In this document: positions 11,035 through 15,002 of the stretch, piece after piece
How the letters are laid out: each line of letters begins with the position of its first letter
How positions within the stretch are numbered: position 1 is the stretch's first letter
DNA from: an uncultured Leptolinea sp.
Lineage (GTDB): Bacteria > Chloroflexota > Anaerolineae > Anaerolineales > Anaerolineaceae
Assembly (NCBI GenBank): GCA_903828565.1
Contig: CAIKMQ010000013.1
Location: forward strand, 19,096 to 83,095
Direction of reading: 5' to 3'
DNA length: 64,000 nt
Made by a program: the position numbers and the translations under genes
The notes under the pieces: model-generated
What the model saw: the letters and a program-made list of their open reading frames with translations, nothing else
The model's database searches: none
What the model was told of the DNA's origin: nothing

Positions 11035-13689
11035 TCATTGTTCACCGCCAGAAATGGCGGTGATCTGTTTTAATATCCAACTGCCGTCAGCCATGGCTTT
11101 CTGCGGCATATCCCCCTCGTAGACAATAGCCAGCGTTATTGGGGTTCCTGCCCAGTCGGAGTTAGTTCCCCCGATAAACCAGGTGATCGTTTCGGTTTCA
11201 CTGCTAATTCCCTGTCCCACAGCCCCCCAACCGGGTATACCAGCGAGGGTTAATCCTTTTGCAGCCGCATCCGCATTTCGGGGAGTGTATACTGAGGATG
11301 TTGCGGGTTTTCCGGGAATGATGGACCAATCATTTTTAAAGGATTGGAAGGATGACCCAATTACTGGGGAAAGCTTGGATCCGTGGCTGCTGAAGCTTGC
11401 CGCCGCCAGGGCAGCCTGTAAGGGTGAGATCTCCAGGTGTTCCTGTCCCAGTCCCGCTTGCAGAATGGAGTTTACTTTTAGAGGATCGATCATCCCAGCC
11501 ACGGGCAGGGTGAAATTTGGCGCTGTGTAAAAACCCAGGGATTTGTAGAGCGCATATAGATCTTTGCTGCCGAGGGAATTGCTGATGTCTACTGCGGGTA
11601 GCGGACATCCGGACTGAACGAGTAACCAGATGGAAGGATCTGTGGTAGCCAGGGGTAAACCGCAATGGATCGTATGGTCAGATAGTTTAATGAATCCACT
11701 ACTAAAGCGTATGTGGCCCAACGGTTGATCGGCTGATTCAGCTGCTAGAAAAACCCCGCTGAGTGTACCCAGAGGATACTTACCATTCAGAGCACGGTTC
11801 AGTAACGGGGAGGTTGCATCACCGATCAAGCTGATCCATGATGTTTCCAGTTCCGCCGGGTCAAACCACGGATTCGAGGAGATCGCCAGCACCTCGCCCG
11901 TCTTTGCATTCAAAATAATGCCTCCCCCGCTGGTGTTTCCCCAGATGGCATCCAATTTCCTTTGAACGGAAAGATCCAGAGTCAAGCGCAGGTCTTTTCC
12001 GGCGGGGGGATGGCTATACAGAAGATTACTCCACCAGAGGGTAAGGGGATCGTAAGACCTCAAACCACGAAGATAATCATCGTAGGCATCCTCAACTCCG
12101 GTTTTTCCAAATATTATGTTGGAATATCCCGTTGTCGTACTCAGCTGAGGGTAAGCATAAACGCGCTCATAACTACCGCCTTCTCCTGTGGTGGAATTGA
12201 TCAATTCACCATTACGATCCAGGATGTCACCACGTGGGATATAGTAATCGGCGATAGCTCGGCGAAGGTTATCGTTTCGATCCAACAGGGCACTTTGTTT
12301 GATTACGGACCAGTAAGGAAGAACCAGAAGGGCTGCTGTAGTTGCCAGTAGAATAGCGGGAAGGATGCGGGATTGTACTCTTTCCCGGTAAGGTTCATGC
12401 CGGGGAATATTTGAACTGTGTGAACTGATAATGAGAAGGAATGCACTGGCAGTCAGACAGGTGAGCAGAGAAGATCCGCCGTAAGAAAAGAAAGGTAGCG
12501 TAACGCCGGTTAAAGGCAGCAAGCGGATATTGCCGGCAATGATCAGCAGGCTTTGTCCAGCCAGCCAGGTGGAGATACCCATGGCGAAAAGAGATGAGAA
12601 TCGGTCATTGACATGGATCGCAGTCGTATATCCCCGGAAGGCTATCAGGAGAACGATGAGCAATACTGCCGCAGCGCCGAAAGTACCGGTCTCTTCCGCT
12701 ATGGCTGTGAACATAAAATCTGATACTGCGACAGGCACGAGGGTGGGGCTGCCCATGCCTGGACCTGTTCCAAATACACCACCTGCCGCCTGGCTGATCA
12801 GTGCCTGGATCACCTGGTAAGAACGGCCTGCCGGATCAAGCCAGGGGTTGAGCCATCCTTCTACCCTCAGCCGGATGACATCAAACAGGAAGTATCCGGT
12901 TATCCCTGCGCCTACACCTACAAATAAGCTACCGATCAGCCATTTACGTTGACCAGTTGCCAGGTATACCATTAAGATGTAGATCAATACCAGGATGGTT
13001 GTGGTTCCCAGGTCACGCTGTGCTAACAGCAACAGAAAAGCCAGAAAGGCGATGGCCAGGGAGGGAATGATGATGGCAGGGTCTTTCAGGTGAAGGGATA
13101 CGCGATGGGAGAAATATGCGCTCAAATAGACTATAAAGAATAGTTTCAAAGGCTCAGATGGTTGGATCGCCATACCGGCAAAATTCAACCACAGGGACGG
13201 TTGTGTGGAATTATTGGTGAGCGCGGGTAGAAGTGTGAATCCGATTAATACCAAACAACCGGCAAGCAACCATCTGGAATACTTCTTGAGTGTGAATAGC
13301 AGATGCTTCCAGCGAAGGATCAGGATGAGGGAAATGGAACCGGACACGAACCATATTGTTTGACGCAAACCCAACCCCGGGGATAAACGCCAGACCGCAA
13401 GCAATCCCCAACCGGCACAGAGATAGATCAGGTGTAAGAGATAAGGATCACGTGCTGGCAAATACTGTCGGGCAGCTTTGTTAACCAGAATAAAAATTGA
13501 AAGCCAGGCAGTATAGCCTATCCAATGACGCCAGGCAGGGTAAGTAAAGAACCCTTCTTCATGAATCAGGCTGGACAGCGTCAATGCAGCTGCATACAGA
13601 CTGATAAATATTATGGCAGCAGCTGACAATCTCCGCTGGATGAAAGATACATAGCCTGGTGCATATCGGGTGGAAGGAGAACCATTCAC
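11035..13689 (-). CDS. SEDS (FtsW/RodA) glycosyltransferase fused to a penicillin-binding-protein-like domain with degenerate catalytic motifs
   Basis: N-half: multi-TM SEDS with VEGWLNPWLDPAGRSYQVIQALISQAAGGVFGTGPGMG...SDFMFTAIAEETG. C-half: RGDILDRNGELI, GGGIILNAKTGEVLAISSNPWFDPAE, LLNRALNGKYPLGTLSGVFLAAE, GLGQEHLEISPLQAALAAA (PBP fold), single ORF. Confidence 0.9.
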   Translation of the reverse strand: MNGSPSTRYAPGYVSFIQRRLSAAAIIFISLYAAALTLSSLIHEEGFFTYPAWRHWIGYTAWLSIFILVNKAARQYLPARDPYLLHLIYLCAGWGLLAVWRLSPGLGLRQTIWFVSGSISLILILRWKHLLFTLKKYSRWLLAGCLVLIGFTLLPALTNNSTQPSLWLNFAGMAIQPSEPLKLFFIVYLSAYFSHRVSLHLKDPAIIIPSLAIAFLAFLLLLAQRDLGTTTILVLIYILMVYLATGQRKWLIGSLFVGVGAGITGYFLFDVIRLRVEGWLNPWLDPAGRSYQVIQALISQAAGGVFGTGPGMGSPTLVPVAVSDFMFTAIAEETGTFGAAAVLLIVLLIAFRGYTTAIHVNDRFSSLFAMGISTWLAGQSLLIIAGNIRLLPLTGVTLPFFSYGGSSLLTCLTASAFLLIISSHSSNIPRHEPYRERVQSRILPAILLATTAALLVLPYWSVIKQSALLDRNDNLRRAIADYYIPRGDILDRNGELINSTTGEGGSYERVYAYPQLSTTTGYSNIIFGKTGVEDAYDDYLRGLRSYDPLTLWWSNLLYSHPPAGKDLRLTLDLSVQRKLDAIWGNTSGGGIILNAKTGEVLAISSNPWFDPAELETSWISLIGDATSPLLNRALNGKYPLGTLSGVFLAAESADQPLGHIRFSSGFIKLSDHTIHCGLPLATTDPSIWLLVQSGCPLPAVDISNSLGSKDLYALYKSLGFYTAPNFTLPVAGMIDPLKVNSILQAGLGQEHLEISPLQAALAAASFSSHGSKLSPVIGSSFQSFKNDWSIIPGKPATSSVYTPRNADAAAKGLTLAGIPGWGAVGQGISSETETITWFIGGTNSDWAGTPITLAIVYEGDMPQKAMADGSWILKQITAISGGEQ

Positions 13690-13700
13690 GCTAAATTAGA

Positions 13701-14555
13701 TCATCCTATCAAGCCGGCAAGTTTATTCCTTGCAGTTTCTGTCATGGCGTCAGGGTGTGTGATCACGGCATCCTTCAGTGCACTATGGCAGGCACACTCA
13801 GCGATCAGGCCGGGATCTTTCACCAGGTTTCGCAAGGATTGTTGAGCTGTTTCCGTATTCTTTGTCAGGGTACGGACAACCATCTCCACCGAGACCGGCG
13901 CTTCGCTGGTATGCCAGACATCATAATCAGTTACGTGGGCTATGGAGCAGTAACATATTTCAGCTTCTCTGGCCAGGAATGCTTCCGGGCTGGTCGTCAT
14001 TCCAATGATTGCGATGCCCCACGAACGAAACAGGTTGGATTCAGCCCGGGTTGAAAACCTGGGCCCTTCCACGGTGATCAAGGTGCCGCCAAAATGAACC
14101 ATAGCACCCGTGGCAGCAAGGGAATTTCGAGCGTACTGACGCATTGTTCCGCAGAATGGCTCTGCGACCCCGATATGGGCAACTATACCGCCTTCAAAAA
14201 AAGAGCGTTTGCGGTCGCGGGTGAAATCTACCAGCTGATCGGGAATTACGATATCACCCGGTGCAAAGTCTTCACGCAGTGAGCCGCAGGCGCTGATCGA
14301 AACTATTTTTTTGACTCCGAGTTGTTTGAAGGTGAAGATGTTTGCGCGGTAGTTCACCTCCGAGGGATTGTAGATATGGCCAATCCCGTGGCGGGTAAGA
14401 AATGCAATTCGCCTGCCAGCCAGCAACCCAATGACGATCGGTGAGCTGGCTTTTCCATAGGGGGTTTCCGGGTGAACAGTATGGACATCTTCTAAACCGG
14501 GAAGATCATATAGTCCGGATCCGCCGATCACACCAAGAACTGGAGCTTCATTCAT
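13701..14555 (-). CDS. mtnP: S-methyl-5'-thioadenosine phosphorylase
   Basis: GVIGGSGLYDLPGLED, RHGIGHIYNPSEVNYRANIF, SISACGSLREDFAPGDIVIPDQ, EGPRFSTRAES. Confidence 0.93.
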   Translation of the reverse strand: MNEAPVLGVIGGSGLYDLPGLEDVHTVHPETPYGKASSPIVIGLLAGRRIAFLTRHGIGHIYNPSEVNYRANIFTFKQLGVKKIVSISACGSLREDFAPGDIVIPDQLVDFTRDRKRSFFEGGIVAHIGVAEPFCGTMRQYARNSLAATGAMVHFGGTLITVEGPRFSTRAESNLFRSWGIAIIGMTTSPEAFLAREAEICYCSIAHVTDYDVWHTSEAPVSVEMVVRTLTKNTETAQQSLRNLVKDPGLIAECACHSALKDAVITHPDAMTETARNKLAGLIG

Positions 14556-14567
14556 GGTTCCTCCATC

Positions 14568-15002
14568 TTACTTTTCTTCAAGCATCACTTCCAGATGATA
14601 TGGGCCAACGATGATTACATCACGATTGATCAGTACCACCGAATCGTTCACCCGTTCGTTATTCAGGAGGGTGGATAGATTAGTATGGATATTCTCCAGC
14701 CACCACTGACCCTGGTGATAGGTTAATGTGGCATGGCGGTCAGCAACCGCAGCATCGGGAAGCGAAACTTCATTTCCGGTATCTCTGCCTATTCCGGCAC
14801 TCTTTTGGTTGAGCCGAAAGGTATGCGGGTTTCCAGCTTCCTGATAGGTCAGGGTGAGCAGAGCCACATCACTTTCATCCTGTTTGGTAGGGCGACGGTA
14901 GATTTCAATCCAAAGCGTGTAGACCACCCAACCAATGAACAGGTAGAGAGATATGACAAGGAGAATTCGAATTACCAGTAAAAGGATGCTCATAGAAACC
15001 AT
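14568..15002 (-). CDS. Membrane-anchored FHA domain protein
   Basis: N-terminal TM, then GIGRDTGNEVSLPDAAVADRHATLTYHQGQWWLENIHTNLSTLLNNERV (FHA). Confidence 0.87.
   Translation of the reverse strand: MVSMSILLLVIRILLVISLYLFIGWVVYTLWIEIYRRPTKQDESDVALLTLTYQEAGNPHTFRLNQKSAGIGRDTGNEVSLPDAAVADRHATLTYHQGQWWLENIHTNLSTLLNNERVNDSVVLINRDVIIVGPYHLEVMLEEK

Follow-up and report, generated by a model that had tools for sequence, protein, structure and literature searches.

The stretch of DNA analysed here (the window, 64,000 nucleotides) carries, at 11035..13689 on the minus strand, a frame of 884 codons with a GTG start that encodes a fusion of a SEDS protein with a pseudo-class-B PBP. An earlier note on this DNA had placed the ORF at exactly these coordinates and left the strand unstated; the plus strand of the interval was riddled with stops. 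That note had also described a SEDS half and a class-B-PBP-like half in one ORF, and the Pfam matches on the 884-aa frame bore this out. PF01098 matched residues 108-426 (E=1e-70, 238.6 bits against a cut-off of 26.4), PBP_dimer_2 (PF21922) matched residues 486-550 (E=7e-8, above the cut-off), and the match to PF00905 (Transpeptidase) was partial and weak, covering residues 590-790 only with 44 bits, still above the cut-off. The length of 884 aa, the two conserved domains and the recurrence of the fusion in dozens of genera showed that the frame is no chance ORF.

All parts of the fusion lie on the minus strand. About 80 N-terminal residues with additional TM helices, as seen in the AlphaFold2 (AF2) model, precede the SEDS (FtsW/RodA) membrane half, which takes up residues 84-425 (12415..13440; PF01098, E=1e-70). 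The PBP transmembrane helix follows at residues 433-463 (12301..12393; hydropathy and model helix 433-463), then the pedestal, or PbpA dimerisation domain, at residues 464-570 (11980..12300; PF21922), and finally the pseudo-transpeptidase domain at residues 571-880 (11050..11979; PF00905, 44 bits; Foldseek to PbpA, TM 0.74-0.78). The catalytic Asp of the SEDS half is D324 (12718..12720), within VAVSDFMF, at the ECL4 position of the catalytic Asp in E. coli RodA (D262) and FtsW (D297). It aligned with the TDFIF of E. coli RodA (8tj3_B) and was invariant in both 45-sequence fusion sets, so the DFMF Asp is kept, as had been claimed. The QPSE and SYGGSS motifs of the SEDS half were invariant or almost so.

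The structure of the fusion was modelled with AF2 from 45 sequences (pLDDT 87.5, pTM 0.80), and the PBP half was also modelled alone (pLDDT 80, pTM 0.82). The earlier note had proposed such modelling as a check, and the PBP fold persisted in the model. The top Foldseek matches were PbpA structures of Atopobium, Eggerthella and M. tuberculosis (TM about 0.74-0.78 by target length). Pfam and Foldseek together gave the overall class B PBP fold, with a pedestal and a transpeptidase domain. In the model a helix begins at the former SxxK (641), and a strand at 820-828 covers the former KTG. The PBP scaffold is thus predicted to be preserved without its chemistry.

The transpeptidase motifs were examined in PBP halves gathered from the family, order, class and phylum and aligned with the window genome's own active PBPs. 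The motif columns were defined by 26 active homologues, all of which have Ser, Lys, Ser, Asn, Lys and Gly there; live homologues read, for example, PGSTFK, SCN and GKTGTAE. None of the three class B PBP motifs, SxxK, SxN and KTG, was present at the expected columns of the fusion. The former SxxK reads T642 L S G645 (11755..11766), and the reported changes of Ser to Thr and Lys to Gly were therefore confirmed against the 26 active homologues. The SxN and KTG motifs, likewise reported as lost, are replaced at the aligned columns by G694 C695 P696 (11602..11610) and A823 V824 G825 (11215..11223). All literal motif strings that had been quoted were present in the ORF. The sole literal SxxK of the fusion is SVIK (about 461-464), where the PBP transmembrane helix ends, and its two literal KTGs lie outside the active site, in the pedestal (529) and in a beta-strand turn (596). 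An intact Ser-x-x-Lys and KTG elsewhere, a feature that the earlier note had set against its own reading, was found neither in the whole sequence nor in profile alignments to the fold neighbours. The PBP-half profile spanned the whole domain of M. tuberculosis PbpA and Eggerthella PbpA, and replacements stood at all three motifs. A pseudo-transpeptidase state combined with a retained SEDS active site is strongly supported by these alignments. A large group of homologues (among the named loci L178, L191 and others whose C-half measures about 405 aa) lacks about 60 residues of the helical lobe, including SxN; as the alignments read, this deletion is a progressive reduction of the dead domain.

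Two conserved genes lie upstream of the fusion on the same strand. The first encodes a phosphorylase-superfamily (MTA phosphorylase-like) protein (13701..14555, minus strand; PF01048) and the second an FHA-domain protein with an N-terminal TM helix (FhaB-like; 14568..15002, minus strand; PF00498), so that in the window an FHA gene stands near the SEDS and PbpA-type gene with one gene between. Among 80 named-genome loci, many of them contig-limited, the phosphorylase homologue was found in 65 and the FHA homologue in 63. The live relative L257 has the order FhaA - FHA - phosphorylase - SEDS - PBP, and an MTA-phosphorylase-like gene lies between the FHA and SEDS-PBP genes in most of the Chloroflexota loci examined, live and dead alike. 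The arrangement resembles the actinobacterial locus fhaA-fhaB-pstP-rodA-pbpA-pknA-pknB (PMC6554272), in which FHA proteins also stand beside a SEDS protein and PbpA, and the PBP half of the fusion is PbpA-type by PF21922 and by fold. However, actinobacterial PbpA is catalytic and separate, whereas the Chloroflexota PBP is dead and usually fused; the phosphorylase gene occupies the place of pstP, and no match to an FhaA_N or PASTA domain was found in the window genome.

The occurrence of the SEDS-PBP subfamily was surveyed in 61 genomes (the window's own and 60 relatives), and presence was judged by an E-value gap. Within the family of the window genome 33 of 37 genomes had it, as did 23 of the other 24 genomes of the order. 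The gene was missing from five of the 61 (G006, G014, G018, G036 and G050), one of which, G018, is a single-contig genome; it is therefore not essential everywhere. The 80 named-genome loci, the best ones by similarity to a 6-sequence alignment query, came from Anaerolineales or Anaerolineae (Chloroflexota) MAGs and from the isolates Longilinea arvoryzae KOME-1 and Ornatilinea apprima P3M-1. All but one of them (79/80) were fused, and none (0/80) had an intact motif set; L191 has a chance S..K with the other motifs missing.

A survey of homologues for conserved motif loss, as the earlier note had suggested, gave 110 homologous PBPs across Chloroflexota, 84 dead (a count that takes in the window PBP and the doubtful G065) and 26 live. 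The live homologues were mostly separate genes adjoining the SEDS gene. On a rough, quick-method tree of the SEDS halves (134 rows, 49 open branches), the live or dead state needed 3 changes and fusion 6. Once G065 was set aside, the dead PBPs formed essentially one large Anaerolineae lineage plus G214 of another class. This last case (L139:1967-4630, minus strand) is a separate dead and fused PBP outside Anaerolineae, with the motif remnants TGPLAQ and VGLLAT. Elsewhere in the phylum the corresponding locus has live PbpA homologues encoded as separate genes, which suggests, as far as comparison of loci can tell, that this was the ancestral state. About 17 homologues were dead yet split, as separate adjacent genes, and one, L140, was fused yet live; death and fusion are therefore separable whatever the details of the tree, and fusion is not the essential part of the arrangement. 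The live fusion (L140:2153-5056, minus strand, genome G327, of another Chloroflexota class) has fully intact transpeptidase motifs and would be useful as a live control.

Two candidate losses were rejected. In the G065 PBP ORF (L122) a low-complexity GEELEELGAVGELEE-type sequence replaces the SxxK/SxN region but not KTG, which is intact, and the sister species, G127, has the normal form. This replacement is probably a repeat insertion or an assembly fault, and because of the GELEEL-type sequence and the intact KTG, G065 was not counted as an independent recent loss. L149 was rejected as a dead case because the fetched stretch ends within its ORF.

Conservation was compared along 45 fusions. 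Columns with at least 90% identity made up a fraction of 0.34 in the SEDS half, 0.40 in the pedestal and 0.25 in the first part of the transpeptidase domain, and this fell to 0.00 in the SxxK helix, 0.01 in the helical lobe and 0.05 in the KTG strand. The pedestal was thus the most conserved part of the PBP half, slightly above the SEDS half (0.40 vs 0.34 at 90%). At the 80% level, conservation of the pedestal was the same in live (0.21) as in dead (0.22) homologues, whereas from live to dead it dropped from 0.47 to 0.06 in the SxxK helix, from 0.19 to 0 in the helical lobe and from 0.38 to 0 in the KTG strand. The dN/dS ratios of close pairs (Nei-Gojobori, dS up to about 1) were about 0.06-0.17 for the SEDS half, 0.06-0.25 for the pedestal and 0.09-0.30 for the dead lobe, leaving out one nearly identical pair with lower values. 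These ratios were well below 1 throughout, dead lobe included, which excludes neutral or pseudogene decay. A PBP partner that is dead across a lineage and still under selection suggests survival as a regulator, not as an enzyme.

The window genome (2.2 Mb, 48 contigs, 99% complete) has a canonical RodA/PBP2 locus on contig C28 and a canonical FtsW/FtsI locus on C32, so the fusion is a third, extra SEDS. Contig C9 encodes a class A PBP and C35 an intact class B PBP that carries a MecA_N domain, and FtsI, PBP2, the MecA_N PBP and the class A PBP are all intact. The earlier note had suggested a self-contained SEDS enzyme. In the cell's economy the fusion is not one, as it stands third beside RodA/PBP2 and FtsW/FtsI and intact crosslinking PBPs are present. 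The MecA_N-type class B PBP is possibly the crosslinking partner of the fusion. It was found in all 61 order genomes sampled and, outside the order, in 24 of 26 dead and 14 of 26 live genomes. Overall it accompanied the dead state in 71 of 73 genomes vs 14 of 26 live ones (Fisher p=7e-7), an association that comes down to only 2-3 phylogenetically independent contrasts, none in favour. The raw association is unsupported once phylogeny is considered, so this co-occurrence was dropped as support and is used as a hint only.

Taken from sequence, model and analogy, the fusion is probably a third SEDS polymerase in which a resident pseudo-transpeptidase acts as allosteric activator or switch, while other PBPs do the crosslinking. 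The SEDS glycosyltransferase would come from the RodA-PbpA lineage of an fha-rodA-pbpA locus, and its partner PBP would have lost D,D-transpeptidase chemistry in Anaerolineae and become covalently fused to the SEDS protein in most lineages. Lipid II polymerisation would be switched or stimulated by the TM helix and pedestal of the pseudo-PBP, which would bind the SEDS half, and the strands made by the fusion would be crosslinked by other PBPs, possibly the MecA_N-type one. SEDS activity is controlled by the contact of the pedestal with ECL4 (PMC8078798), E. coli RodA is stimulated by the TM helix of PBP2 alone (PMC10449877), and RodA has been described as being switched allosterically when the transpeptidase domain opens (PMC10257715). 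The SEDS partners of B. subtilis PBP2B and C. difficile SpoVD continue to be supported when these PBPs are catalytically dead, and dead PBP2B, PBP1 and SpoVD can serve SEDS partners while other PBPs crosslink (PMC8078798, PMC12713402). We infer an activator role for the pseudo-PBP, which would fit this published allostery as well as the pattern of a kept pedestal and a free catalytic lobe; conservation of the pedestal would be equally expected if it were a mere docking or stability element. A broader version, held with slightly less than even confidence, is that in much of Anaerolineae a dedicated SEDS polymerase has a pseudo-transpeptidase as its sole built-in partner; polymerisation would then be obligatorily uncoupled from its own crosslinking, with the dead PBP as a purely allosteric switch and a separate MecA_N-type PBP as the crosslinker.

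The pseudo-transpeptidase lobe could instead be a binding module that senses or holds nascent glycan, stem peptides or a divisome or elongasome partner and so positions the SEDS half, which we consider unlikely. The dead lobe is under purifying selection and has kept its fold, more than a TM helix and a pedestal alone require, and P756, G770, W821, W837, G841 and E858 are invariant in the fusion alignment. However, conservation is lowest at the residues of the substrate groove, and in one large group a deletion has removed about 60 residues from the helical lobe, a pattern that speaks against binding of peptides by the old active site. We also think it very improbable that the PBP half remains a transpeptidase or carboxypeptidase through a non-canonical nucleophile, Thr642 or another. 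Thr is the commonest residue (31%) at the Ser column of the dead set and the PBP fold is retained, but that column also holds N, A, G, P, S, E, D, R or Q, no residue is preferred at the Lys column, KTG is unrecognisable, and the SxN columns are empty in 63 of the 80 named-genome loci. Nor did residues 639-750, where at most 1% of columns were conserved, contain any further conserved cluster that looks catalytic. Just as little credence is due to the view that the SEDS half acts on another lipid-linked glycan rather than peptidoglycan, the PBP half having been freed from catalysis for that reason: the protein is indeed additional to RodA and FtsW, but the residues that mark SEDS enzymes, the catalytic Asp among them, do not vary, and relatives have active class B PBP partners at the same locus. 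Ordinary decay of a pseudogenising PBP tail on a SEDS gene, or a metagenome assembly artefact, is the least credible, for although the G065 replacement looks artefactual, the frame is open in dozens of genera and in cultured isolates with long contigs (L210, L244), the dN/dS of the lobe is well below 1 and the operon neighbours are conserved.

In current models, one complex physically couples SEDS polymerisation to PBP crosslinking, which avoids futile synthesis, and the PBP is enzyme and allosteric regulator at once. To our knowledge, these two roles have so far been separated only by engineered point mutants. If the pseudo-PBP is an activator as proposed, evolution would have parted them throughout a lineage that includes cultured strains, and live relatives with the same locus would serve as controls. 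The lineage would let one ask which parts of a class B PBP serve SEDS activation only, and whether coupled crosslinking is needed. Judging by the lost motifs, it would also offer a SEDS system whose own PBP partner should escape beta-lactam acylation.

Like the RodA-PBP2 and FtsW-FtsI synthases, the fusion joins a SEDS protein with a retained catalytic Asp to a cognate class B PBP with TM helix and pedestal; unlike them, it has lost the transpeptidase active site, and both canonical pairs are present additionally. Natural SEDS-PBP fusions, with SEDS and PBP likewise in one ORF, exist and have been cited as encoding both activities (PMC10449877), whereas in the Anaerolineae fusion the PBP activity appears to be gone. 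Engineered dead B. subtilis PBP2B, S. aureus PBP1 and C. difficile SpoVD S311A are needed structurally while another PBP crosslinks (PMC8078798, PMC12713402), as proposed for the fusion, but these are laboratory mutants, and the dead state of the fusion arose in nature and is fixed throughout a bacterial lineage. Pairs of SEDS and bPBP, natural fusions of the two and PBPs made inactive by engineering are already known. In the open-access literature searched no description was found of a pseudo-transpeptidase that serves a SEDS enzyme naturally and across a whole lineage, and subscription papers may hold a prior mention.

A different SEDS fusion was seen in G018 of the same family, the single-contig genome without the SEDS-pseudoPBP gene. 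Its ORF (L062:3190-5484, plus strand) encodes a 765-aa FtsW-MurG-like fusion (PF01098 + PF03033 + PF04101).
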